Shown in pieces: positions 41,018-56,356 of a stretch of 64,000 bases of DNA. A program made the translations under genes and the position numbers. The stretch's first letter is position 1. The number at the start of each line of letters is the position of its first letter. Origin of the DNA: Corynebacterium confusum (GTDB taxonomy: Bacteria > Actinomycetota > Actinomycetes > Mycobacteriales > Mycobacteriaceae); contig NZ_CP047202.1 of NCBI RefSeq assembly GCF_030408715.1, positions 124,001 to 188,000 on the forward strand, given 5' to 3'. The notes under the pieces were generated by a model. The model made no database searches. It had not been told where the DNA came from and saw nothing but the letters and a program-made list of their open reading frames with translations.

Positions 41018-43432
41018 GTGGCTAAACTCCTGTACCGGTTGGGGCATTGGTCCTACCTGAACAAGTGGAAGGTCATCGTCACCTGGCTTGTGCTCCTGGC
41101 CGCGACCGCGGGTACGGCCGTGGCGCTGATGAAGCCGATGACGAGCGAGTTCTCCATCGCGGGCACGCCGTCCATCGACGCGACCTACCGGGCCATGGAG
41201 CTCTTCCCCGAGGGCGGCAACCCGGCGAACGTGCCCACGGTGAACCTGGTCTTCCACGCCCCGGAGGGCGAGAAGCTCAGTGACCCGGACAACGCGCAGG
41301 CCATTGACCAGGTGGTGGACTACCTCCGGGACAACCTGGAGATGGGCGACACCATGCGCTTTGGCAACCCGCTGGAGGTCTCGCCCAAGCTGCAGGAGCA
41401 GGTCGTCGACCAGTTCACCTCGATGGGGCTGCCGGAGGAATCCGCCCGCCAGGACGCGGACAACCTGGCGATGGTCAGCGAGAACGGGACCATCGCGTAT
41501 ACGACTTTTGACTTCGACGCTGAGAGCCCTTATACGGTGGACTCGGAAGACAAGGAGATTGTAAGCGACGCGATGGATCTGGGCCGCGCGGCGGGCCTGC
41601 AGGTCGAGGCCGGCGGCGCCGGCTTCGGCGACGATATCCGGGTCAACTCGACCTCCGAGGTCATCGGCCTGGGCGTGGCCTTCCTGGTGCTGATCTTCAC
41701 CTTCGGCTCGCTGGTCTCTGCAGGCATGCCGCTCATCTCCGCGGTGATCGGCGTGGGGCTCGGATCGCTGGGCCTGATGATCGCCACCCACTGGGTGGAG
41801 CTGAACAACATGACCCCGGTGCTGGCCGTGATGATCGGCCTGGCCGTGGGCATCGACTACGCCCTGTTCATCCTGTCGCGCTACCGCGCCGAGCGCGAGC
41901 GCATGTCCGGGCCGGAGGCCGCGGGCATGGCCGCCGGCACGGCCGGCTCCTCGGTGGTCTTCGCCGGCACCACTGTCTTCGTGGCGCTATTCGCGCTGGT
42001 GATCGCCCGCATCGGCTTCCTGTCCGCCATGGGCCTGGCCGCCGCCGGCACCGTAGCCATCTCCGTGCTGGTCGCCCTGACCCTGATCCCGGCCCTGCTG
42101 GGGCTGCTGGGCGACAAGGCCTTCGCGGGCCGCATCCCGGGCGTGGCCGGCAACCCGAACCGCAAGGGTAAGCGCTCCCGCCGCCGCACTATGGGCAACC
42201 GCTGGGTGCGCGCGGTCCAGAAGGTGCCGGGGCTGACCATGGCCGGCGTGGTCCTTTCCCTCGGTCTGCTCTCGGCGCCGGTGCTGAACATGGAGCTGGC
42301 GCTGCCGGCGGATACCACCTCGAACCCGGACACCACCCAGCGTAAGGCCGCGGACCTGCTCGCGGAGGGCTTCGGCCCCGGCGTGAACGGGCCGTTCTTG
42401 GTCATCGTGGACGCGGCCGACGTCAACGAGGACTCCGCCGCGCTCCAGCCGCTGATGTCCGCGCAGGAGGGCGACGACGAACATTCCAAGGCCGCGTTCT
42501 CGTCCTTCATGTACGCCACGGATCAGCTCAAGGGCGTGGGCGGGGTCAAGCACGCCCAGCTGGTGGGGCTCAGCCAAGACCAGAACTCCGCGCAGATCAT
42601 GATCACCCCGGAGACCTCGCCCACGGAGGAGGCCACCGTGGGCGTGGCCAACGCCCTGCGGGATACCAACTCTCGGATCGAGGACGCGACCGGCACCGAG
42701 GTCGGCATGACGGGCCTGACCGCCGTGCAGCTGGACATCACGGAACGCCTCGAGCAGGCCATGCCGCTCTACCTGGGCATCGTGGTGGGCCTGGCCATCC
42801 TGCTGCTGCTCGTGGTCTTCCGCTCGGTCTTGGTCCCGCTGGTGGCTGGCCTCGGCTTCCTGCTCTCGGTGGGCGCGGCGTTCGGCGTGACCGTGCTGTT
42901 CTGGCAGGAGGGCCTGTGGGGCCTGGTGCCGGCGCCGGGCCCGCTGATTTCCTTTATGCCGATCTTCCTCATCGGCGTGACCTTCGGCCTGGCTATGGAC
43001 TACCAGGTCTTCCTGGTCACCCGCATGCGCGAGCACTACACGCGCAGCGGCGGCACCTCCCGGCCGGGCTCGCCCTACAACGGGGTCGAAGAGGCCACCA
43101 TCGTCGGCTTCACCCAGGGCGCGCGCGTGGTCACCGCGGCGGCCATCATCATGATCTCGGTCTTCGTGGCCTTCATCAACCAGCCGCTGCCGTTCATCCA
43201 GATCTTCGGCTTCGCCCTGGGCGCGGGCGTGCTTTTCGATGCCTTCTTCGTGCGCATGGCACTCGTGCCCGCCACGATGTTCCTGATGGGCCGCGGCACC
43301 TGGTGGATGCCGCGCTGGCTGGACAAGATCCTGCCCACCATCGACATCGAGGGCAACGAGCTGGAAAAGGAATGGGAAGCTCAGGCCACTAAGCAGAGGG
43401 AATATACTGACCAGCATGACGCACGCAGGTGA
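41018..43432 (+). CDS. MMPL-family RND transporter
   Basis: An 804-residue RND-type membrane protein with the MMPL pattern: one N-terminal helix, a large extracytoplasmic loop, five or six helices, and then the same again. The proton-relay Asp-Tyr pairs are in GLAVGIDYALFILSRY (about residues 275-290) and GVTFGLAMDYQVFLVTRM (about 652-669). Actinobacterial MMPLs carry trehalose mycolates or other lipids; some export small molecules. This one is not near mycolate genes, so its substrate is open. It starts with GTG after AAAGGTG and overlaps tgt by 17 bases. Confidence 0.88.
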   Translation: MAKLLYRLGHWSYLNKWKVIVTWLVLLAATAGTAVALMKPMTSEFSIAGTPSIDATYRAMELFPEGGNPANVPTVNLVFHAPEGEKLSDPDNAQAIDQVVDYLRDNLEMGDTMRFGNPLEVSPKLQEQVVDQFTSMGLPEESARQDADNLAMVSENGTIAYTTFDFDAESPYTVDSEDKEIVSDAMDLGRAAGLQVEAGGAGFGDDIRVNSTSEVIGLGVAFLVLIFTFGSLVSAGMPLISAVIGVGLGSLGLMIATHWVELNNMTPVLAVMIGLAVGIDYALFILSRYRAERERMSGPEAAGMAAGTAGSSVVFAGTTVFVALFALVIARIGFLSAMGLAAAGTVAISVLVALTLIPALLGLLGDKAFAGRIPGVAGNPNRKGKRSRRRTMGNRWVRAVQKVPGLTMAGVVLSLGLLSAPVLNMELALPADTTSNPDTTQRKAADLLAEGFGPGVNGPFLVIVDAADVNEDSAALQPLMSAQEGDDEHSKAAFSSFMYATDQLKGVGGVKHAQLVGLSQDQNSAQIMITPETSPTEEATVGVANALRDTNSRIEDATGTEVGMTGLTAVQLDITERLEQAMPLYLGIVVGLAILLLLVVFRSVLVPLVAGLGFLLSVGAAFGVTVLFWQEGLWGLVPAPGPLISFMPIFLIGVTFGLAMDYQVFLVTRMREHYTRSGGTSRPGSPYNGVEEATIVGFTQGARVVTAAAIIMISVFVAFINQPLPFIQIFGFALGAGVLFDAFFVRMALVPATMFLMGRGTWWMPRWLDKILPTIDIEGNELEKEWEAQATKQREYTDQHDARR
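43403..43408 (+). promoter_or_regulatory. Leaderless-type -10 box (TATACT) for tgt
   Basis: TATACT inside the last codons of the MMPL gene ends seven bases before the ATG of tgt. It matches the TATAAT consensus in five of six positions. Confidence 0.55.
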
Positions 43433-44675
43433 CTTGAGCTTTAAGGTCCGTACCCGCCTGGAACAGGAAGGCGCGGGAAAGCACGGCCGCACCGGGGTGA
43501 TTAGCACCCCGCACGGGGATATCCAGACCCCGGCTTTCATCCCGGTGGCCACCAAGGCCACCGTCAAGACCCTGACCCCGGAGCAGATCCGGGCCACCGG
43601 CGCTCAAGCCATTCTGTCGAACGCGTACCACCTCTACCTGCAGCCCGGCCACGACATCGTGGACGCCGCCGGCGGGGTCGCCGCCTTCGAGAACTGGCAC
43701 GGCCCGACGTACACCGACTCCGGCGGGTTCCAGGTGATGAGCCTCGGCGTGGGCTTCAAGAAGGTGCTGGCCATGGACCTGGCCGACCTGACGGAGCAGG
43801 ACATTCGCGCGGCCAAGAAGGAGCGCATGGCGCAGGTGGATGAAGACGGGGTGGACTTCAAGTCCGTCATCGACGGCTCCAAGCACCGGTTTACCCCGGA
43901 AAAATCCATGCAGATCCAGCACGGGCTGGGCGCGGACATCATGTTCGCCTTCGACGAGTTGACCACGCTCGTCGACACCCGCGCCTACCAGGAAGAGTCG
44001 GTGGCGCGCACGCACCGGTGGGCGCAGCGCTGCATCGATGAGCACACGCGGCTGACCCAGGAGCGCACCCACCGGCCCAAGCAGTCCCTGTGGGGCGTGG
44101 TGCAGGGCGCCCAGTACGAGGACCTGCGGCGCCAGGCTGCCCGCGGCCTGGTGGAGATCTCCGATAAGGCCTGGGCGTCCGGCAGCCGCGGCTTTGGCGG
44201 CTTCGGCATCGGCGGCGCGCTGGAGAAGGAAAACCTGGGCACCATCGTCGGCTGGGTCTGCGACGAGCTGCCGGAGGACAAGCCGCGCCACCTGCTGGGC
44301 ATTTCCGAGCCGGACGACCTGTTTACCGCGGTGGAGGCCGGCGCGGATACCTTCGACTGCGTCGCGCCGACGCGCCTGGCCCGCCGCGGCGGTGTCTACA
44401 CCCTGGACGGGCGGCTGAACCTATCGAACGCCCGCTTCAAGCGCGATTTTGCGGGTGTGGACGAGGAATTCGGCGGCTACGTCTCCGAGAACTACTCGCG
44501 GGCCTACCTCCACCATCTGCTCAAGGCGAAGGAGTACCTGGCCGGGACGCTGTGCACCATCCACAACCTGGAGTTTATGGTCCGCCTGGTGGACAATATC
44601 CGCGCCGCCATCGACGGCGGCTACTACGCGGCCTACCGCGACGAATTCCTGGGGCGCTACTACGCCGGCCGCTAA
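43416..44675 (+). CDS. tgt: tRNA-guanine transglycosylase Tgt, zinc cysteines missing
   Basis: A 419-residue TIM-barrel enzyme that swaps G34 of tRNA(Asp/Asn/His/Tyr) for preQ1 or queuine. The acid Asp lies in TDSGGFQVMS (Asp101) and the nucleophile in FDCVAPTR (Asp314); WGVVQGAQYEDLR and HLLGISEPDD are base-recognition blocks. It is about 40 residues longer than E. coli Tgt. Where other bacterial enzymes carry CxCxxC before NYSRAYL, this protein reads EFGGYVSENYSRAYL, so the three zinc cysteines become Phe352, Gly354 and Ser357; the fourth ligand, His383 in TIHNL, remains. It may have its own leaderless promoter. Confidence 0.93.
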   Translation: MTHAGDLSFKVRTRLEQEGAGKHGRTGVISTPHGDIQTPAFIPVATKATVKTLTPEQIRATGAQAILSNAYHLYLQPGHDIVDAAGGVAAFENWHGPTYTDSGGFQVMSLGVGFKKVLAMDLADLTEQDIRAAKKERMAQVDEDGVDFKSVIDGSKHRFTPEKSMQIQHGLGADIMFAFDELTTLVDTRAYQEESVARTHRWAQRCIDEHTRLTQERTHRPKQSLWGVVQGAQYEDLRRQAARGLVEISDKAWASGSRGFGGFGIGGALEKENLGTIVGWVCDELPEDKPRHLLGISEPDDLFTAVEAGADTFDCVAPTRLARRGGVYTLDGRLNLSNARFKRDFAGVDEEFGGYVSENYSRAYLHHLLKAKEYLAGTLCTIHNLEFMVRLVDNIRAAIDGGYYAAYRDEFLGRYYAGR

Positions 44676-44711
44676 CGCGAAGGGCCTGCGCTGTGACGCC
44701 TAGGCGGGTGT

Positions 44712-44717
44712 TACGGT
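44712..44717 (+). promoter_or_regulatory. Leaderless-type -10 box (TACGGT) for the ABC-class ATPase gene
   Basis: TACGGT ends seven bases before the ATG at 44725. Confidence 0.5.
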
Positions 44718-44724
44718 GGCGGGT

Positions 44725-46500
44725 ATGTCTGGAAGGAATTTTCGCGGTGACTGCCGCTCAGGCGGTACTTTAGAGGACCTCGCTAAGGCCTGCCACGGTA
44801 TCGACGGCGCCGGTTACGGCGCGTACAAGAAGCTCGCCGGCACCTATACTGAGCCCGGCCCGGACGGGCTGACGGTGGCGATCGACAAGGTGCAAAGCGA
44901 TCCCTTCGCCGCCCCGTCCAAGGTGCGGGTGCGCGTGCCCCGCGCGGTGGCCGACCTGCCGGCCGACGTGGTCACCGATGAGCTCGACAAGGTCGCGGTG
45001 GCCGACTTTCTCGCCCGCAGGATTGCGCGCATCGCCGCCGCCATCGGCGGCGGCAAGGGAGGCAAAGGCCGCAAGGGCAGCGGCAAGTCCAACAGCGTGA
45101 GCGTCGGGTTCATCGGCCAAGAGGTACTGGAGCGCAGCGCCGTCGTGGTCACCGACGAGGTTATCGAGGTGCGCCTGCTGGTCGGCCTGCCGGCCCAGGG
45201 CCGCCGCGTCCTCGGCCACCGCGCCGCCGGCCTGCTGGCCGAGGACCTGCCGGACGCGGTGGAAGAGGCCGTGGTGACCGAGGAATTCGACCCGGATGAC
45301 CTGGCTCGTCACGTCTGGCTCCTGCGCGACCAGGAGGCCCTGCGCGCGCAGCTGGCTACCCGCGACCTGGTCGGTTTCGTGGGCAACGGCGCCATCCTGC
45401 CGCGCCGGGCCGGTGATAGCAACAAGCCGATGGACGCGGATACCGCCGCGGCTTTTATCGCCCCGGAGGAGCTCACGCACAGCTTCGAGCTGCCCAGCGG
45501 CCGCACCGTGACGGGCATGGGGGTTCCCGCCGGCCTGACCGTCATTGTGGGCGGCGGCTACCACGGCAAGTCCACGCTGTTGCGCGCCCTGGAGCGCGGC
45601 GTCTACCCGCACGTGGCCGGCGACGGCCGCGAATGGGTCATTACCCGGGCGGATGCCGTCAGCGTGCGCGCCGAGGACGGCCGCCCGGTCACGGACCTGG
45701 ATATCTCCCCGTTCATTACCAACCTGCCGACCGGGGCGGATACCCGCCGCTTTTCCACCACCAACGCCAGCGGCTCGACCTCCCAGGCCGCCAACGTCGT
45801 CGAGGCCGCTGAGGCCGGCGCCACCGCCCTGCTGATCGACGAGGACACCTCGGCGACGAATTTCATGATCCGGGACCGCCTCATGCAGGAGCTCGTCCCC
45901 GGCGACCAGGAGCCCATCACCCCGTACGTGGCGCGGGTGAAGGCGCTCTACCAGGACAAGGGCATTTCCACCGTCCTGATTGCGGGCGGATCCGGCGCCT
46001 ACCTCAGCCTGGCCGACACGGTCATCGCCATGGACCGCTACCAGCCGCACGAGATCACCTCCCGCGCCCATGAGATCGCCGCCGGCTCCCGCCCGCACGA
46101 GCTGGAGCTTGCGCCCGGAATGTTCGAACCCAGCGGCCGCGCCCTGGCCCCGGGCTGCCTTAAGCCCGCCGCCGGTCACAAGGGCAAGCCCCAGGGCGCG
46201 AAGCCGCGCGGGCTAGACACCATCAGCTTTGCCAAAAGCGACATCGACCTAAGCGCGGTCTCGCAGCTGGCCGATGCCCCGCAGACCGCCGCCATCGCGC
46301 TGTGCCTGGAGTGGCTGGGCAAGCACAACGACTCCCGCCCCGTCACCGAGCTGGTCGACGAGCTGCTGGCGACCATCACCGCCGAGTCCCTGACCGCGCT
46401 GACCCCGGGGCGCGCCCACCCCGGGCACCTGTCCCGCCCCCGCAAGCACGAGATCCTGGCTGCGGTGAACCGTTACCGGAGGTTGGATATCAAGCGCTAA
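44725..46500 (+). CDS. Predicted ATPase of the ABC class (PF09818-like), function unknown
   Basis: A 591-residue soluble ATPase. Residues 1-115 form an N-terminal part with a Gly/Lys-rich linker (GGGKGGKGRKGSGKSNS). Walker A GGGYHGKSTLLRALE lies near residue 275. FSTTNASGSTSQAANVVEA stands at the signature position, and Walker B is ATALLIDEDTSATNFMIRD. IRDRLMQELVPGDQEPITPY and GISTVLIAGGSGAYLSLAD are family blocks. There is no partner permease. The C-terminus carries another helical domain. It lies between tgt and a convergent yhhQ. The family's cellular role is not established, so I assign none; start 44725 is preferred for the -10 box. Confidence 0.82.
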   Translation: MSGRNFRGDCRSGGTLEDLAKACHGIDGAGYGAYKKLAGTYTEPGPDGLTVAIDKVQSDPFAAPSKVRVRVPRAVADLPADVVTDELDKVAVADFLARRIARIAAAIGGGKGGKGRKGSGKSNSVSVGFIGQEVLERSAVVVTDEVIEVRLLVGLPAQGRRVLGHRAAGLLAEDLPDAVEEAVVTEEFDPDDLARHVWLLRDQEALRAQLATRDLVGFVGNGAILPRRAGDSNKPMDADTAAAFIAPEELTHSFELPSGRTVTGMGVPAGLTVIVGGGYHGKSTLLRALERGVYPHVAGDGREWVITRADAVSVRAEDGRPVTDLDISPFITNLPTGADTRRFSTTNASGSTSQAANVVEAAEAGATALLIDEDTSATNFMIRDRLMQELVPGDQEPITPYVARVKALYQDKGISTVLIAGGSGAYLSLADTVIAMDRYQPHEITSRAHEIAAGSRPHELELAPGMFEPSGRALAPGCLKPAAGHKGKPQGAKPRGLDTISFAKSDIDLSAVSQLADAPQTAAIALCLEWLGKHNDSRPVTELVDELLATITAESLTALTPGRAHPGHLSRPRKHEILAAVNRYRRLDIKR

Positions 46501-46518
46501 GCCGGATACCTTACGGGC

Positions 46519-47229
46519 CTAGGCGCCCGCCCCGCCGGCAACGTAGTTCTCCTTCTTTTTGACCCACTTGATGACCTGGGTGGTCACTGGCAGGAGGACG
46601 ACCTCGATGAGGGTCTTCCACAGGAAGCCGACGATGACGTAGTTGATGAAGTCGCTGGCGGTGGAGATGCCGATGACGGGCGCCGCGATGGCGCAGAACA
46701 GGAGGGTATCGCCGAACTCGCCCACGACGGTCGAGGCGATGAGGCGGACCGGCAGCTTCTTCTCGCCGTTGCGGCGCTTGAGCACGGACATGACCCAGGC
46801 GTTGAGCAGCTGGCCGACGAGGTAGCCGCAGAGGGAGGCCAAAACGATCTGGGGAACCAGGCCCAGGGTGGCGGCGAAGGCCTCTTGGCCCTCGTAGAAC
46901 TCGGCTTCCGGCAGCCAGATGCCGATGTAGAAGGACAGCACGGCCAGCAGGGCCATGGCGAAGCCGATGTAGATGGCGCGCCGGGTGGACTTAAAACCGT
47001 AGCACTCGGCCAGCACGTCGCCGGTGATATAGGCCAGGGGGAACAGGAAGAAGGCGCCGTCGGTGACTAGGGGGCCAAGCTCGACGCCCTTCGTGGCGTT
47101 GATATTCGAGATCAGGAAGGTGACGACGAACAGCGTGACCAGCCACGGGTACAGGCTGGCCTGCACCGGGATGAATCGGATGCTCTCGCCACCGGGGTTG
47201 GTGGTTGCGGTTGCCGATTGTTTTGTCAT
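46519..47229 (-). CDS. yhhQ: YhhQ-type queuosine-precursor transporter (VUT family)
   Basis: A 236-residue membrane protein with about six helices. Family marks are FLISNINATKGVELGP, the block DGAFFLFPLAYITGDVLAEC with conserved Asp and Glu, and VGEFGDTLLFCAIA near residue 171-184. E. coli YhhQ imports preQ0/preQ1, and other members take up queuine or queuosine. Start ATG at 47229, just after AAGGTGC. It is convergent with the ABC-class ATPase and divergent from gluQ, with 41 bases between starts. Placement beside tgt and gluQ supports a queuosine salvage role. Confidence 0.88.
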   Translation of the reverse strand: MTKQSATATTNPGGESIRFIPVQASLYPWLVTLFVVTFLISNINATKGVELGPLVTDGAFFLFPLAYITGDVLAECYGFKSTRRAIYIGFAMALLAVLSFYIGIWLPEAEFYEGQEAFAATLGLVPQIVLASLCGYLVGQLLNAWVMSVLKRRNGEKKLPVRLIASTVVGEFGDTLLFCAIAAPVIGISTASDFINYVIVGFLWKTLIEVVLLPVTTQVIKWVKKKENYVAGGAGA

Positions 47230-47257
47230 GCACCTTATCGTGCCAGAACGTGGGCGG

Positions 47258-47263
47258 TACGCT
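47258..47263 (+). promoter_or_regulatory. Leaderless-type -10 box (TACGCT) for gluQ
   Basis: TACGCT ends seven bases before the ATG at 47271. Confidence 0.5.
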
Positions 47264-47270
47264 GTAATTT

Positions 47271-48197
47271 ATGAGTTCTGAGACCCTTCCTGTGGCCGGG
47301 CGTTACGCGCCCAGCCCAAGCGGTGACCTGCATTTTGGAAACCTGCGCACTGCGCTGCTGGCCTGGCTGTTTGCGCGCTGGTCCGGCCGGAAATTCTACC
47401 TGCGGGTCGAGGACGTGGACACCCAGCGTTCCTCGCTGGAATCCGCCGCGCGGCAGCAAGAAGACTTGCAGGCTATCGGTCTGGAATGGGACGGTGAGGT
47501 GCTGCGCCAGCAGGACCGTTCTGCGGCGTACGAGGCGGCGCTGGTCCGACTGCCGCACTACGAGTGCTATTGCTCCCGCAAGGACATCCAGGAAGCCGCC
47601 CGCGCCCCGCACGCCATTCCCGGCCAGTACCCGGGCACGTGCCGGGACTTGAGTGATAAAGAGCGGGAGGCCAAGCGGGCGGAGCTGGCCGCGGCTGGCC
47701 GCATGCCGGCGTTGCGCCTGCGCGCCGACCGCGACGAGTATACCGTGCACGACTACCACCGCGGTGACTACACCGGCGAGGTCGATGACTTCATTCTGCG
47801 CCGCGGCGGAAACGCAAACCAGCACCAGGACTTCGCCTACAACCTGGCCGTGGTGGTCGATGACACCTACCAAGGCGTGGACCAGGTGGTGCGCGGCGAC
47901 GACCTGCTTACCTCCGCCCCACGCCAGGCGTACCTGGCGCACCTGCTGGGGAAGGCGGCCCCGGAGTACGTCCACGTGCCGTTGGTACTCAACAGCGACG
48001 GTCGACGCCTGTCCAAGCGCGACGGGGCGGTGACCCTGCGCCAGCTGCTGGAGACCGCCAGCGTCCAGCAGGTGGTGGGGCAACTTGCGGCATCGTTGGG
48101 GCTGGCCGGGGTCCGCAGCGCGGAGGAGATCTTAGAGTGCTTCGACCCGGCACGGATGGGCTGGGATGCGGTTTTCTGGGAGCCGGCAGGAAACTAA
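47271..48197 (+). CDS. gluQ: Glutamyl-Q tRNA(Asp) synthetase
   Basis: A 308-residue class I synthetase paralogue lacking the anticodon-binding domain of GluRS. It attaches Glu to queuosine at position 34 of tRNA(Asp). The HIGH-like motif is [12 protein letters not shown] near residues 13-24 and the KMSKS-like motif RLSKRDGA near 246-253. Zinc-site cysteines appear in CYCSRKDI and [32 protein letters not shown] is the usual core. Its presence implies that mature queuosine is made, although queA and queG/queH are not in this window. Confidence 0.9.
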
Positions 48198-51039: not shown

Positions 51040-51111
51040 TCGGACCTGACCCCTTGGTGGTGGACACGTTGAAACCAGCATCTAGCTGGGGAAGTGAGGT
51101 ACCTTTCTACC

Positions 51112-51453
51112 ATGCCGCGCAAGACCTACACCGAGCAGTTCAAGTGTGACGCAGTGTCGTTGTACGAGTCGATCCCCGGAGCCACGATCAACGCGGTCGC
51201 CTCCGATCTCGGGGTCAACCGCAACTCCCTGGGCACCTGGCTCGACGCCTTCGGCACCGGCACTAAAACCAACGCCAGCGGTGAAAAAGTCGCCAGCCCG
51301 ATCGTCGCAGCCAACAGCGAACGCACCCCGGCTGAAGGACTCTCCGATGCCGAGCGGATCCGCGTGTTGGAACGCGAGAACGTCAAGCTCCGGGAGGAAC
51401 GAGAGATTCTGCGCAAGGCGGCCAAATATTTCGCGGAAGAGACGAACTGGTGA
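51112..51453 (+). CDS. IS3-family transposase OrfA
   Basis: A 113-residue DNA-binding subunit. An N-terminal helix-turn-helix (KTYTEQFKCDAVSLYES, then INAVASDLGVNRNSLGTW) is followed by a leucine-zipper-like segment (RIRVLERENVKLREEREILR). The start is placed at 51112 (ATG CCG CGC). It ends in GTGA, overlapping the OrfB start in the -1 frame, so OrfB may be made by coupling or by frameshifting into a fusion transposase. No classical A6G slippery run is seen. Confidence 0.85.
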   Translation: MPRKTYTEQFKCDAVSLYESIPGATINAVASDLGVNRNSLGTWLDAFGTGTKTNASGEKVASPIVAANSERTPAEGLSDAERIRVLERENVKLREEREILRKAAKYFAEETNW

Positions 51454-52361
51454 ACCGCTTTCAGTTCGTTGATGACCACCGAGACTTCTACGAGGTCAAG
51501 CGGTTATGTGAGGTTCTGAAGATCAACCGGTCCTCGTATTACACATGGAAATCTGCTGCTCCTGCTCGCCGGCGACGCCTGGTTGCTGACGCGGTGCTGG
51601 GAGCGAGGATCAAGGCCGTGTTCACGGCCGGGAACGGCTGTTACGGGGCGAAACGTGTGACTGCGGCCATCAACGCCGATCCCGCTAACGACCGGGGCAA
51701 TGGTGACCGTCTCAATCACAAGCACGCTGCCAGGTTGATGCGGCAGATGGGCCTTTTCGGCTACACCAGGAAACGCTGGGTGAAGACCACCGTGTCCGCG
51801 AAACGTGCGCCTAAATTCCCTGACCTTCTGAAACGCCGGTTCACCGCGGAGAAACCGAACAAGGTCTACGTCGGCGATATCACGTACCTGCCGATCGCGG
51901 ACGGGTCGAATATGTACCTGGCCACGGTTATCGATTGCTATTTGCGGCAGTTGACCGGTTTCGCGATCGCCGACCACATGCGCACCGAGTTGGTCGAAGA
52001 AGCCCTCACGATGGCTCACGGGGTCCGAGGTAGCCTTGACGGGGCGATTTTTCACTCGGATCACGGCAGTGTCTATACCTCTGAGCAGTACCGGAGGTTA
52101 TGTGAGCGGTTCGGTGTCACCCAGTCGATGGGTACGATCGGGACGAGCGCGGACAACTCGTTGGCGGAGTCGTTCAACGCCTCGTTGAAGCGGGAAGTCC
52201 TGAAAGACGAGCCTGTTTTCGCCAGTCAGCTGGTGTGTCGCCGGGACGTGTTCCAGTGGTGCATCCGGTACAACACCCAACGGCTGCACTCGTGGTGTGG
52301 CTACCGCTCGCCGAACGCCTTTGAAGCCGCCGAATCAGCTACACTTACTATCGCATCTTGA
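51450..52361 (+). CDS. IS3-family transposase OrfB (DDE integrase)
   Basis: A 303-residue rve-type catalytic subunit. HTH_21 region near residues 45-105; DDE residues are visible as VGDITYLP (first Asp), FHSDHGSVYTS (second Asp) and SADNSLAESFNASLKRE (Glu). All three catalytic residues are intact and no frameshift is seen, so the element could be active. Start is a GTG overlapping the OrfA stop. Confidence 0.88.
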   Translation: MNRFQFVDDHRDFYEVKRLCEVLKINRSSYYTWKSAAPARRRRLVADAVLGARIKAVFTAGNGCYGAKRVTAAINADPANDRGNGDRLNHKHAARLMRQMGLFGYTRKRWVKTTVSAKRAPKFPDLLKRRFTAEKPNKVYVGDITYLPIADGSNMYLATVIDCYLRQLTGFAIADHMRTELVEEALTMAHGVRGSLDGAIFHSDHGSVYTSEQYRRLCERFGVTQSMGTIGTSADNSLAESFNASLKREVLKDEPVFASQLVCRRDVFQWCIRYNTQRLHSWCGYRSPNAFEAAESATLTIAS

Positions 52362-52431
52362 TTAAATCCCCGTGTCCACTTTCCGGGGTTCGGGCCCAGA
52401 TGACTATACTTAAGAACCGGGAAAGGTTGAA

Positions 52432-52767
52432 ATGACTATATTTTCAATTATTATGGCAGCAACGTGGCTAATTGCTGGGGTCTGCGTTTTGATGTTAGGC
52501 ATAAAAGCTGGTCAGGGGACCCTGGCCAAAAATAAACTAATTGGTATCAGAACCCCGGAGCTTCTGGCCAGTGAAGAAGCGTGGTTTAAAGGTCACAAAG
52601 CCGCCTCTCCCTATTTAAAAATCAGCAGTGTACCGCTATTTATCGGCGGAATCATCTGTCTATTTGCCGATGATGATCTGATTGGTTGGGTGAGCATACC
52701 CGTGGTGGTACTTTTAACTATCATGATCCTAATTTCTTCCAAGAAAGCTCATTCTTCCATAAAGTAG
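52432..52767 (+). CDS. SdpI-family membrane protein, AT-rich
   Basis: A 111-residue protein with three hydrophobic helices. NKLIGIRTPELLASEEAWFKGHKAA is represented by the SdpI/YhfL hallmark GIRTPELLASEEAW at residues 38-51. SdpI in Bacillus confers immunity to the SdpC toxin; relatives are often of unknown role. The DNA is clearly AT-richer than the rest of the window, with codons such as ATA, TTA and AAA that neighbours avoid, which points to transfer from a low-GC source. It sits between two IS3 elements and has a GGGAAAGG ribosome site. Confidence 0.78.
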   Translation: MTIFSIIMAATWLIAGVCVLMLGIKAGQGTLAKNKLIGIRTPELLASEEAWFKGHKAASPYLKISSVPLFIGGIICLFADDDLIGWVSIPVVVLLTIMILISSKKAHSSIK

Positions 52768-52863
52768 AAATCGGCATTCCTTTGGAGTGTCTTAGGTTTT
52801 TAGGTCCGGGTGACTTGAGTGTTGTCCATTGATGCCCTGCCTGTGGGTGGAGAGAATGGATAA

Positions 52864-53148
52864 ATGGTGAAGAAGTTCAGTAAACACACTCCCGAGCAGA
52901 TTGTTCGCAAGCTGGATAAGGCTCGAGAACTCAGAGAATCAGGATCGACCACGGCTCAAATCCTCACCGCGCTGGGGATCAGCGAAGCCACGCTGAACAG
53001 GTGGCAGGCAACCTATGGGGCGATGACCAAGAGCGAAGCTAAAGAGCTCCAGCGATTGCGCGAGGAAAACACGCGCCTCAAACGTCTCCTTGGGCAGGCA
53101 GAGCTGGAAAAGGCGGCGTGGAAAGAATTATCGGAGGGAAACTTCTAA
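52864..53148 (+). CDS. IS3-family transposase OrfA (element B)
   Basis: A 94-residue OrfA with an N-terminal helix-turn-helix (KHTPEQIVRKLDKARELR, SGSTTAQILTALGISEATL) and a C-terminal zipper (LREENTRLKRLLGQAELE). This resembles the IS407/IS51 branch. It overlaps orfB by 31 bases in the -1 frame; GGAAAAGG and GGAAAG lie near the overlap and could allow frameshifting, but this is not demonstrated. Confidence 0.83.
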   Translation: MVKKFSKHTPEQIVRKLDKARELRESGSTTAQILTALGISEATLNRWQATYGAMTKSEAKELQRLREENTRLKRLLGQAELEKAAWKELSEGNF

Positions 53149-53999
53149 GCCCAGCTCGCCGTCATGATGCCGTCTGGCATCTCGTTGGGCTGGGCTACTC
53201 CCAAAGGCGTGCCTGCCAGATCGTTGGACTCTCTCGTAGTGCTTATCGGCGCGCTAGGATCCGTCAGGGCAAGCCGGATAAGTACGCGGACCTAAGGGCG
53301 TGGATGCACGAGTTCGCGCGTGATCACCGCCGGTGGGGACACCGGCGCGCCTGGAGGACCGCCCTCACCGAGGGGTATGGGATATGCCGGGAAACCTTCC
53401 GGAGGATTTGGCGTGAAGAAGGCCTGCGCGTCCTACCCAGGAAGAAGCGCAAACGCGTCGATGGTCACGGCCAGCGCGATGTTCCTGCCGGCCAGTACCC
53501 GAACGACGTGTGGGCGCTGGATTTCCAGTTCGATTCAACATGGCACGGCAAGACGATCAAGATCTGCAACATCATCGATGAATACACTCGCGAGCACGTC
53601 GCCTTCACGGTCGACAAGAAGATCGACGCGGACTCGGTGATCGAGCTGCTCGACCTCGCTTGTTGTGACCAAGGCGGGCGCCGGCGGGTGATCCGGATGG
53701 ATAACGGCCCCGAGTTCATCGCTCATGCGCTCAACGAATGGGCTGGGGAGGATGAAACGATTCAGGCGTTTATCCCGCCAGGCCAGCCCTGGCATAACGG
53801 GTATGTCGAGTCTTTCCACAACCGAATGCGTGACGAACTCTTAGAAGACAACAGCATCGAGAATCTCGAACATGCACGGATGCTCGTGGCCCAGTGGTCG
53901 CAGCGGTACAATGACTTCCACCCGCATTCCTCGCTGGGCTACCTCAGCCCGCGGAAGTATGCGGAACAATGGCAACATGAAAACACGGTCAACGCTTAA
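53118..53999 (+). CDS. IS3-family transposase OrfB (element B)
   Basis: A 293-residue DDE transposase of the IS407-like branch. Catalytic residues are visible in WALDFQFDST (Asp), VIRMDNGPEFIA (Asp) and QPWHNGYVESFHNRMRDE (Glu). The end block HPHSSLGYLSPRKYAEQW is typical. It is intact and could be functional together with OrfA. The GTG start lies inside orfA. Confidence 0.87.
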   Translation: MERIIGGKLLSPARRHDAVWHLVGLGYSQRRACQIVGLSRSAYRRARIRQGKPDKYADLRAWMHEFARDHRRWGHRRAWRTALTEGYGICRETFRRIWREEGLRVLPRKKRKRVDGHGQRDVPAGQYPNDVWALDFQFDSTWHGKTIKICNIIDEYTREHVAFTVDKKIDADSVIELLDLACCDQGGRRRVIRMDNGPEFIAHALNEWAGEDETIQAFIPPGQPWHNGYVESFHNRMRDELLEDNSIENLEHARMLVAQWSQRYNDFHPHSSLGYLSPRKYAEQWQHENTVNA

Positions 54000-54021
54000 A
54001 CCAACTGGACCGAATTCTTAG

Positions 54022-54543
54022 GCCACCCCAGCATCCCTGTCAGCTAATGAACAACGCGCAATCATTGCTGCAGTTGAACGTGCCAGGGTCACTGACATCA
54101 ATCCTCAGGTAGCGCCTTTTGCGACCGCCCAGTCGGACCCCTACCGGATATATATCCAGGGCCTTGAAATGCTGTCCTGCATCGCGCTGGTCGATGTAGT
54201 ATCATGCGGCATCGCCAATCAGGCAGCCACAACCGCGAGTATGGAAGCGCAGAACCGGTTTCCTGGCGCCACATCACTCCGCAATGGAAAGGGCGATGCT
54301 TTTCGGCACTGCTCGTGGAATGCCCTGATGACAATGAGAATCGGTGCAGATGCAGCTGAACGCATTGCTACTAACCACGAAACTGTCGCTCAGGGGCCAG
54401 CGGATTAGACCAGAATGGACCTGTATAACAATGCCCAAGGTCGATTTCTTGGATCTGCTTTCGCAAGTAGTGGCGACGAAGCTTCTGCTTTGAACCAGTG
54501 CGCCCTCTGGGCTAGAATTGGACTGCTATCTACACTTTCCTAG
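54022..54543 (+). pseudogene. 5'-truncated gene with in-frame TAG (DUF6973-like domain)
   Basis: One reading frame runs from the IS right end to 54543 and is interrupted only by TAG at 54406-54408. Before the stop it encodes ANEQRAIIAAVERARV and NGKGDAFRHCSWNALMTMRI; after it, MDLYNNAQGRFLGSAFASS continues what looks like the same domain. The order 'NGxGDAFRHxxWNAL ... MDLxNNxxGR' recalls the DUF6973 domain found in some secreted or toxin-like proteins; this name is from memory. The N-terminal part was removed by IS element B. Base composition is lower in GC than core genes. Confidence 0.62.
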
Positions 54544-54565
54544 GATAGGCACGAGAAGGGGGGTT

Positions 54566-55030
54566 ATGTTAATGAGACGCATGATGGCGCGGATAGGGTT
54601 CATTAGTATTGTCTCCTTATTACTCTCCTCTTGTAGTTTTGATGACCCATTGGCTTCTCATCTCGCGTCCCTAGGACGATCGGGACATGCAATCCCCGTT
54701 ACTGAGTCCATCACACTGGAGGAACTCTACGGACCAGAGTGGACTGAGTTTTCGCTCGTGTGCCCATACACTCCGTATCAAACAGTCAAAGAAACACTTA
54801 TGGCTGATGATCCCCCTGTTCCAGAACACGGCTTCTCCGATCACGAAAACTTCCTCTTTCTTAGAGGAAAGGGCGACAGCGAACAATGGGTGAGGTTCTC
54901 TCGACAGGCTCTCGATCTGTGTTCTCCATCAAGTCCGTCTTCTTTAATCATGGAGTCAACGACAGTTGCTCTCACTTTTTCTCTGGATAATCCGGGTAGT
55001 GCTTGGATTCTAACCGGCTTGAACAAGTAG
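54566..55030 (+). CDS. Putative lipoprotein of unknown function
   Basis: A 154-residue protein with basic start MLMRRMMARIG, hydrophobic stretch and lipobox LLSSC (Cys at residue 23), so probably a membrane-anchored lipoprotein. The mature part begins FDDPLASHLASLG and has two more Cys. GAAGGGGGG precedes the ATG at 54566. It lies 23 bases after the broken DUF6973-like gene and probably formed an operon with it; a partner or immunity role is only a guess. The GC content is lower than in neighbouring core genes. Confidence 0.62.
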   Translation: MLMRRMMARIGFISIVSLLLSSCSFDDPLASHLASLGRSGHAIPVTESITLEELYGPEWTEFSLVCPYTPYQTVKETLMADDPPVPEHGFSDHENFLFLRGKGDSEQWVRFSRQALDLCSPSSPSSLIMESTTVALTFSLDNPGSAWILTGLNK

Positions 55031-55089
55031 TCATATGGGCTCGCTGCTCCTGGGCAGTATCGGGAACACTCAGATTGGGGTCAGGTCCC

Positions 55090-55344
55090 ACACACCGCGG
55101 AAGACGCGGAGAACACCAACGACGAATGCTGGAGTGGTGGCTGTATCTAAAAACAGAACTGCCCGACGACCCCGTAGAAATCGCCAGACAGTCCAAATGG
55201 GGCCAGGGCCAACTCGCCAAAGTACAAACCCTGACCCACAACGAGAACCAAGCCGACCACGAAACAGGACGACCAGCCCTCTACGACAACGCTATCGACA
55301 CCAACTACACCCATTCAATCGGCGTCCGAAAAGGCCAAATCTAG
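55090..55344 (+). pseudogene. IS1249-like transposase C-terminal remnant
   Basis: The frame encodes EWWLYLKTELPDDPVEIA and later NQADHETGRPALYDNAID then THSIGVRKGQI, which resembles the C-terminus of IS1249-type transposases common in corynebacteria. There is no N-terminal part, no catalytic region and no start in a sensible place. Sequence between 55031 and 55090 is unassigned. I regard it as the tail of a lost element; the family match is by memory. Confidence 0.5.
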
Positions 55345-55414
55345 CCCCAGCGACACGCCGAACCAGACACACATTTTGACCCTTAACCCTAGCCCGTCAT
55401 GCTTTGGTTAACGC

Positions 55415-55448
55415 AAAGAAAAACGCGCCTCACCGAAGTGAAGCGCGT
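55415..55448 (-). terminator. Terminator of tRNA-Ser(GGA)
   Basis: On the minus strand an 11-base stem ACGCGCTTCAC/GTGAGGCGCGT (one G-U pair) with a TTCG loop runs into TTTTTCTTT, directly after the tRNA 3' end. Confidence 0.85.
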
Positions 55449-55450
55449 CG

Positions 55451-55539
55451 TGGCGGAGGATGTGGGATTTGAACCCACGAGGGGCGTGAGCCCCGCACGC
55501 GTTCCAGGCGTGTGACATAGGCCGCTAGTCGAATCCTCC
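55451..55539 (-). tRNA. tRNA-Ser(GGA), CCA encoded
   Basis: Read on the minus strand: acceptor GGAGGAT/ATCCTCC, anticodon stem CACGC/GCGTG with loop CTGGAAC (anticodon GGA), long variable arm GGGGC/GCCCC, T-arm GTGGGTTCAAATCCCAC, discriminator G, CCA. Its 3' end faces the accessory pocket. Confidence 0.96.
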
Positions 55540-55547
55540 GAGAAGAA

Positions 55548-55576
55548 ACTCTAGCAGCCCCGGCAAGTGGCGACAA
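55548..55576 (-). promoter_or_regulatory. Promoter of tRNA-Ser(GGA)
   Basis: Minus strand: -35 TTGTCG (55571-55576), a 17-base spacer, and -10 TAGAGT (55548-55553), just upstream of the tRNA. Confidence 0.6.
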
Positions 55577-55700
55577 AATCGGCAGGTCAGCTTGGGAAAT
55601 GGGTGGGTGTTCTAGGGCTATAAAAAGTGGCTGTCGGGTAGGCGGTTGTCGGGGCCGGCGGTGGTGGCGCGCGTGGGCGCCTGGGTGGGGAGTGGACTGT

Positions 55701-55730
55701 TTGGACTATCGCCGGAATCCCGGCTAGAGT
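55701..55730 (+). promoter_or_regulatory. Promoter of SRP RNA
   Basis: -35 TTGGAC at 55701-55706, an 18-base spacer, and -10 TAGAGT at 55725-55730. Confidence 0.6.
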
Positions 55731-55732
55731 AT

Positions 55733-55826
55733 GGGGCAGGATCTCGCGTGGCGTCCATCCTGTGAACTCCCCCAGGGCAGGAATGCAGCAAGGGTCAGCA
55801 GGCTCTGACGGGTGCGCGAGGTCCCC
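55733..55826 (+). ncRNA. ffs: Signal recognition particle RNA, small bacterial type
   Basis: About 94 bases folding into one long hairpin. The ends GGGGC/GTCCCC and CTCGCG/CGCGAG pair. The conserved domain IV core reads AGGGCAGGAATGCAGCAAGG, with the symmetric and asymmetric internal loops and a GGAA tetraloop-like tip that bind Ffh. It lies just upstream of a gntR operon and close to dnaX, the usual actinobacterial neighbourhood. Confidence 0.93.
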
Positions 55827-55838
55827 TTAATCTTTGTT

Positions 55839-55867
55839 GCCATCCGGTTAGTGCTGGGTGGCTTTTT
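55839..55867 (+). terminator. Terminator after SRP RNA
   Basis: Stem GCCATCC/GGGTGGC (one G-U pair) followed by TTTTT. Confidence 0.7.
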
Positions 55868-55891
55868 CTATGTCTGGTCCGCTTTTGGGTC

Positions 55892-55940
55892 TTGACGGGG
55901 TGGGTAGTCTGGGTTAGGTTTACTACCTACCTAGTAAACC
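55892..55940 (+). promoter_or_regulatory. Promoter and operator of the gntR-ABC operon
   Basis: -35 TTGACG (55892-55897), a 17-base spacer, and -10 TAGGTT (55915-55920). The -10 runs into a perfect palindrome, GGTTTACT-acctacct-AGTAAACC (55917-55940), that covers the start site. This is a strong candidate for autorepression by the GntR protein. Confidence 0.75.
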
Positions 55941-55987
55941 ATGTTGGTAGGTCGGTTTGCTGCGGGAACAACAAGGAAGGTGACGGG

Positions 55988-56356
55988 ATGGCTATAACGG
56001 CTAAGGATCCCCGCCCTATCTATCAGCAGATAGCGGAGGAGTTGCGCGGCATGATCTTGTCCGGGCAGCTGCCCGAAGGCGACAGGACACCGTCGACGCA
56101 CGAATTAGCAAATTTTCATGAGGTCACGCCGACTACGGCATCGAAGGCGCTCACGGCGCTGGCGCAAGCCGGGCTCGTGGAAAGCCAGAGAGGACGAGGG
56201 ATGTTTGTCATGCCCGGGGCGCGCGAGCGCATCAGGGACCAACGGAAGAAGGCGTTCGCCCAAGACTTTGTCCGCCCGTTGGTGGCGGAGGCCAGTGCCC
56301 TGGGCTTGGGGGAAGACGACATTGCCCAGATGATCGCTAAGGAGTTAAAACCATGA
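55988..56356 (+). CDS. GntR-family regulator, YtrA type
   Basis: A 122-residue short GntR protein: winged helix at residues 8-76 (PIYQQIAEELRGMILSGQLP, TPSTHELANFHEVTPTTASK, GLVESQRGRGMFVM) and a short helical dimerisation tail, as in the YtrA subfamily that controls ABC transporters. AAGGAAGG precedes the ATG at 55988. It is the first gene of a three-gene operon, with an ATGA overlap to the ATPase gene, and a palindromic operator covers its own promoter. The effector is unknown; many relatives respond to cell-wall-active antibiotics. Confidence 0.9.
   Translation: MAITAKDPRPIYQQIAEELRGMILSGQLPEGDRTPSTHELANFHEVTPTTASKALTALAQAGLVESQRGRGMFVMPGARERIRDQRKKAFAQDFVRPLVAEASALGLGEDDIAQMIAKELKP

Follow-up and report, generated by a model that had tools for sequence, protein, structure and literature searches.

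Introduction

MRB1590 of Trypanosoma brucei is an RNA-binding ATPase, described as a dimer whose N-domain cleft is lined by arginines, with the closed state proposed as the one that ATP favours (PMC4538832). In that report, the double substitution R199A-R200A lowers the affinity for RNA 590-fold and F95A lowers it 10-fold, and the protein is presented as having no significant sequence identity to any other protein (PMC4538832); the bacterial matches obtained in the present analysis are strong. KRBP72 is the same protein; getting past a stem-loop roadblock is reported to depend on its ATPase but not on its own ability to bind RNA (PMC11754742). As for queuosine, salvage is predicted for most Actinomycetota (PMC11130926). 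A relative of MRB1590/KRBP72 and a set of queuosine salvage genes lie together in Corynebacterium confusum, in the 64,000 nucleotides of contig NZ_CP047202.1 (assembly GCF_030408715.1, forward-strand positions 124,001 to 188,000) that are analysed here and referred to as the window: the genes are tgt, a gene for an ATPase of the ATP-binding cassette (ABC) class, yhhQ, which encodes an importer of the Vut_1 family, and gluQ. A sequence-only reading of the window had taken the ATPase for a candidate new component of the salvage pathway. The explanation favoured here, with a probability of roughly 0.6, is that a salvage set and an independent ATPase of the MRB1590/KRBP72 family, likely an RNA remodeller, lie side by side, the ATPase gene being lodged in a tolerant gap.

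A whole-chain relative of MRB1590/KRBP72

The ATPase comprises three domains, each above its cut-off, in the order PF20446 (residues 20-187), PF09818 (194-462, 398.9 bits) and PF21117 (496-593). Its Walker A (GGGYHGKST, 279-287) and Walker B (LLIDED, 372-377) motifs are intact, as read earlier from the sequence, and an ABC signature is also present (ASGST, 351-355). Sequence matches near the full chain were obtained to 5d6a (E 1.3e-108) and to the MRB1590 chains 4yix, 4yiy and 4yj1 (E 4e-105 to 1e-104). An AlphaFold model, made with a 13-row alignment and having a mean predicted local distance difference test (pLDDT) score of 76.5, with weak stretches at 1-13, 113-122, 321-352 and 380-403, was compared with known structures, and five chains, of 5d6a and MRB1590, gave template modelling (TM) scores of 0.77-0.79 over the query, the next match giving 0.23. 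The statement that this ATPase has no known function was thus incomplete, since the trypanosome protein is a characterised eukaryotic relative along the whole chain.

The cleft residues F95, R199 and R200 of MRB1590 correspond to F64, R163 and R164 of the ATPase, by sequence alignment with residues counted by hand. Their conservation was scored in 188 aligned rows (39 from Corynebacterium, 78 from the far loci introduced below, 67 from Bacilli and 4 others), 12 of 200 loci having been dropped because they gave no frame that could be used; two or more contigs occur twice. Position 163 is arginine in every row (188/188), and phenylalanine or tyrosine occupies position 64 in just as many. A cleft arginine that is invariant in every aligned row makes an RNA role in bacteria directly testable.

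Members of the family among the matches are annotated only as “ABC-ATPase domain-containing protein”, and the function of a bacterial member is not addressed in the titles and abstract openings found by a literature search that left most subscription journals outside its reach. A Spirulina protein of 66.65 kDa, listed as an “ATPase of the ABC class” and reported as raised at high temperature (PMC2743650), may belong to the family, while the apparent mention of a family member in PMC7143038 concerns an ABC transporter instead. Weak PF09818 matches in other genera of the host family were taken for ordinary ABC proteins and disregarded, as was a loose match in a C. glutamicum control that disappears once the threshold is E 1e-20. 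A reading as a defence system was also tried, and neither the ATPase nor Tgt has a PADLOC match. Relatives of the ATPase occur on 11 plasmid records (Vibrio 6, Photobacterium 2, Persicobacter 2, Staphylococcus 1) and on 3 unannotated phage-labelled faecal contigs.

A variable gene slot between tgt and yhhQ

The genus sample consisted of 131 Corynebacterium genomes, including the source genome of the window, with 14 control genomes. The ATPase is present in 42 of the 131 (a copy in G241 that is split over three frames being counted), and it lies near tgt in 2 of these carriers, namely the source genome and its sister G191, whose ATPases are 96.5% identical. In the remaining carriers it is on another contig than tgt or farther off, the nearest pair on one contig being 38 kb apart (G227); G143, with both genes at contig ends, is not judgeable. 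Nor is any neighbour common to the 40 Corynebacterium ATPase loci that were fetched, which represent 39 of the 41 other carriers (G143 and G147 being absent) together with G033; one of these loci, L089, lacks a called ATPase frame.

In 86 of the 100 genus genomes that bear the importer, its gene and tgt are at most 10 kb apart. The gap between them is below 400 bp in 43 genomes and 400-1000 bp in 13, and it reaches 1 kb or more in the other 30. Two of these 30 large gaps are those of the window and G191, and 20 of the other 28 were opened (L374-L393). None of the 20 contains the ATPase; by clustering they hold more than 10 different gene sets, including MFS (major facilitator superfamily), ABC-transporter, Schlafen-type, HNH, oxidoreductase, ThrE and unknown genes. 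The adjacency of the ATPase to tgt is therefore explained by a variable gene slot between the convergent tgt and yhhQ.

A comparison of identities also bears on the origin of the gene. After the sister genome, the nearest by Tgt is G181, with 88% identity (ATPase 51%), and in G166, likewise near by Tgt, the ATPase identity is about 50%; the nearest by ATPase are G197, G172 and G242, with 64% (Tgt 81%). That the Tgt-nearest and ATPase-nearest genomes differ suggests, from identities and not from a tree, that the ATPase arrived from outside. Under the favoured explanation, the ATPase gene would have reached its place, a permissive gap towards which tgt and yhhQ point their 3' ends, probably by horizontal transfer and with its own promoter, in an ancestor of C. 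confusum and its sister. The protein would then act as proposed for MRB1590/KRBP72, as a homodimeric ABC ATPase whose N-domains form an arginine-lined cleft for single-stranded RNA. The cleft would be closed in the ATP state and open when ADP and RNA are bound, and turnover of ATP would in this way loosen structured RNA or hold it open.

Likely queuosine salvage in the genus

Profile searches found tgt in 131/131 genus genomes, gluQ above its cut-off in 119/131 and Vut_1 in 100/131. QueA, QueH and QueG were each found in 0/131, the source genome included, the controls being positive in 9, 2 and 7 of 14, respectively. The presence of Tgt with QueA, QueG and QueH at 0/131 makes salvage likely, and the salvage inference of the sequence-only reading is in this respect supported; its wish to see the rest of the genome is answered for queA, queG and queH. 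The tgt-yhhQ-gluQ group is thus supported as a queuosine salvage set of an already known kind, in which the importer would bring in the base (queuine or preQ1), Tgt would insert it into tRNA and GluQ could glutamylate queuosine in tRNA(Asp).

The ATPase beyond the genus

A far sample of 80 loci across bacteria (3 of them Corynebacterium) was examined with flanks of up to 8 kb, shorter at contig ends. Near the ATPase, tgt occurs in 1 locus (L134), yhhQ in none, and gluQ in 1 as a 67-residue partial match. With linkage to tgt in 2/42 genus carriers, both sisters, and in 1/80 loci across bacteria, the proposal that the ATPase is a salvage component is not supported. A different partner gene did not emerge, as among 100 near-operonic neighbours (of 123) from these loci no Pfam family has more than 4 matches.

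At the level of whole genomes, a Tgt match is present in 39 of 40 carriers outside the genus (40 of 77 such loci, isolates being preferred), the exception being Saccharomonospora saliphila. In a draw of 296 Actinomycetota genomes the ATPase is found in 50, a Tgt match in 186 and both in 45, the ATPase carriers crowding into few families. The five carriers without a Tgt match are G362, G396, G425, G443 and G552. Draft gaps may play a part in such cases, but G396 consists of a single contig (95% complete) and the completeness given for G443 is 100%. The genomes with an ATPase and no Tgt match are these five and L122/G252. The co-occurrence survey that had been proposed therefore shows an ATPase that is not restricted to genomes with Tgt (5/50 Actinomycetota and 1/40 other carriers lack a match). 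In 40 of the 44 Actinomycetota with both genes besides the source genome (G465, G489, G504 and G509 being left out), the two are never within 10 kb, the nearest pair being 53 kb apart (G548).

The Bacilli block and alternative roles

In Bacilli the ATPase is present in 79 of 319 genomes (L254-L329, L136, L144, L168), and here a block can be recognized, made of a gene of the uracil-DNA glycosylase (UDG) superfamily, the ATPase, RNase HI, queG, an Ogt-type gene, an amidase and a SpoU-type methylase, where the UDG, Ogt-type, amidase and SpoU-type names come from one representative each. Cluster counts are 31 for QueG, 26 for the Ogt-type gene, 25 for RNase HI, 20 for UDG, 18 for the amidase and 12 for the methylase. 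Downstream of the ATPase and on the same strand, queG occurs in 31/79 loci, with the RNase HI gene between the two in 29/79 and queG directly after the ATPase in L298 and L311 (gaps of 16 and 5 bp). Between RNase HI and ATPase the gap is -17 to +53 bp in 22 of 25 loci with a called frame. The UDG-superfamily gene is upstream of the ATPase in 17 of the 31 queG-linked loci and the Ogt-type gene follows queG in 26; in a second arrangement (L279, L289, L291) the UDG-superfamily gene is downstream of the ATPase, with a small protein between that appears thioesterase-like from its letters.

Neighbour counts that fall with distance look like clade-shared synteny, a part of the fall being due to the 5 kb flanks. 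ATPase identity across these loci goes down to 50%, with a median of 64%, and with proteins as little as 50% identical it is possible that selection keeps the block together. The block fits a role in nucleic-acid upkeep at least as well as a role with queuosine. The least improbable alternative is a general nucleic-acid repair factor, or a remodeller of RNA:DNA hybrids, that would cooperate with RNase HI and enzymes of DNA repair, and for it the mostly tight RNase HI gaps and the recurrent UDG-superfamily and Ogt-type genes speak. This role is nevertheless doubtful, since nearly all cases are from Bacilli: the 40 Corynebacterium loci give one Ogt-like match and no UDG, RNase HI, QueG or SpoU-type match, and 29 other actinobacterial loci (flanks of about 1.5 kb) give no Ogt-like, UDG, RNase HI, QueG or SpoU-type match.

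A part in queuosine metabolism, for instance in opening tRNA for Tgt or QueG or in controlling salvage, is what the company of tgt, yhhQ and gluQ in the window would suggest, together with the Tgt matches in nearly all carriers outside the genus, the excess of Tgt among Actinomycetota carriers and, as the best remaining hint, the queG genes behind the Bacilli ATPases, two of them directly. We consider such a part unlikely. Linkage within the genus is confined to the two sisters and the importer is not commoner in carriers, Vut_1 being present in 28/42 of them vs 72/89 non-carriers (p 0.08, in the direction opposite to a queuosine link). Apart from the sister's, the five ATPases most similar to that of the window come from G172, G194, G197, G242 and G243, which have no Vut_1 match and from which gluQ also appears to be missing, as each has a single match in the GluQ search with an E-value at the level of GltX. 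Moreover, the genus has no queG match, Saccharomonospora saliphila and five Actinomycetota carriers have no Tgt match, and the Bacilli block holds RNase HI, UDG-superfamily, Ogt-type, amidase and SpoU-type methylase genes besides queG.

A narrower and still less probable form of this idea is that the MRB1590/KRBP72 family in bacteria uses ATP to open structured tRNA and so aids wobble-base enzymes, QueG in Bacilli and Tgt in the present pair of genomes; if true, a trypanosome editing factor would be kin to a helper of tRNA modification. That the ATPase serves an ABC transporter as its ATP-binding subunit, perhaps in the uptake of a queuosine precursor, is highly improbable despite the ABC-type motifs of the protein, given its own N- and C-domains as in MRB1590, the fold match to MRB1590 and 5d6a along the whole chain, TM scores over the query of at most 0.24 for transporters among the best 50 matches, and adjoining genes that, as already noted from the sequence, include no ABC permease.

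Several observations weigh against the explanation preferred here, of an independent RNA-remodelling ATPase lodged beside a salvage set. The second cleft arginine, R164, is arginine in only 44/78 far and 25/67 Bacilli rows. The in vivo role of KRBP72 is reported to be independent of its own RNA binding (PMC11754742), so that the cleft may matter less. ATPase and Tgt distances correlate over 39 genomes (Spearman 0.39), which runs counter to an arrival from outside. Finally, Tgt is found in 45/50 ATPase-bearing Actinomycetota vs 141/246 others (odds ratio 6.7, Fisher p 4e-6, uncorrected for kinship), and this co-occurrence, like the queG linkage in Bacilli, would have to be a lineage effect.

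Features of the locus

All four genes are intact, their coordinates hold as previously assigned, and profile scores bore out their names (Table 1). For the importer, the preQ0/preQ1 transporter model NF008406 gives 58.2 where 252 is needed, so that this threshold is missed.

Table 1. Genes and putative promoter elements of the locus, in window coordinates.
Feature	Position	Strand	Remarks
TATACT, leaderless-type -10 box of tgt	43403..43408	+	7 nt ahead of ATG
tgt, tRNA-guanine(34) transglycosylase	43416..44675	+	TIGR00430 411.5 bits vs cut-off 306.75
TACGGT (TAnnnT), likely leaderless-type -10 box of ATPase	44712..44717	+	7 nt ahead of ATG 44725
ATPase, PF20446-PF09818-PF21117, MRB1590/KRBP72 family	44716..46500	+	594 aa with GTG 44716 as start, 591 aa with ATG 44725
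Importer (Vut_1), QPTR/COG1738-type, queuosine precursor (yhhQ)	46519..47229	-	PF02592 164.5 bits; TIGR00697 108.7 vs cut-off 50.95
TACGCT, leaderless-type -10 box of gluQ	47258..47263	+	7 nt ahead of ATG
gluQ, tRNA glutamyl-Q(34) synthetase	47271..48197	+	NF004315 299.6 bits vs cut-off 250

The leaderless-type -10 boxes proposed for the three plus-strand genes hold as a pattern, with the qualification that the box of the ATPase fits only ATG 44725 and not GTG 44716, a spacing by which the likely start shifts to ATG 44725. By background, TAnnnT at a spacing of 7 precedes 0.27% of all positions in the window and, among ATG/GTG triplets, 0.56%. In the sister locus (L075) all three boxes are letter-identical. 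As consensus matches, the boxes suggest separate leaderless transcription of tgt, the ATPase gene and gluQ. A scan of the window for sigma-70 two-hexamer promoters gave 0 sites (0.4 in shuffles), and a terminator scan likewise did no better than shuffles. Farther downstream, transposase-like frames lie at 51094-52361 and 53118-53999 (apparently IS3-like from reading the letters), and the G+C content goes down to 0.548 at 52001-56000.

The corynebacterial Tgt is itself a variant. The motifs DSGGFQ (residues 101-106) and FDCVxPTR (313-320) are both kept. The structural zinc site of Tgt we take to be CxCxxC...H; in the alignment, the window Tgt is without the three cysteines of this site, having EEFGGYVS instead, and keeps in type the histidine of THN. 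Of 31 Corynebacterium rows, among which that of the window is counted twice, 29 fall under 12 patterns at this site, none with a cysteine. The Tgt proteins of the window and of L040-L069 also carry additional residues behind the MSLG motif, and their pocket loop is shorter. The pocket motif of queuine-type Tgt is given as GG[LS][AS]G (PMC11570991), and Cys158Val and Val233Gly as eukaryote-like changes (PMC3660597). The pocket loop of the window Tgt aligns as GIGG---ALEKE, three residues shorter than that of L134 and with GG[LS][AS]G not visible, alternative alignments being possible, and the Cys158 position is aligned with leucine.

Comparison with known systems

The salvage genes resemble the queuine salvage described for Actinomycetota (PMC11130926, PMC11570991), sharing with it a Tgt without QueA, QueG and QueH and, in most Corynebacterium genomes, a QPTR importer. 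The locus differs from that description by its ATPase, a word absent from the main text of PMC11130926. The tempting guilt-by-association link between ATPase and queuosine is weakened, and its origin is apparent in a tgt-yhhQ gap that accepts many genes.

The Vibrio vulnificus protein 5d6a, a predicted ABC-class ATPase, is of the same family as the ATPase (TM scores 0.79/0.85), with an aspartate at the R164 position when compared by the structure record. Unlike MRB1590/KRBP72, the window ATPase is bacterial, free-standing and without kinetoplast RNA editing. The signature of MRB1590 reads ASGST in the aligned chain, as in the ATPase, and ASGGS as printed in PMC4538832. The two proteins are alike in sequence and fold along the whole chain, in a Walker A motif with HGKS, in Walker B and in the counterparts of F95, R199 and R200, and through this likeness a widespread bacterial ATPase family is tied to a characterised, RNA-handling member from trypanosomes.

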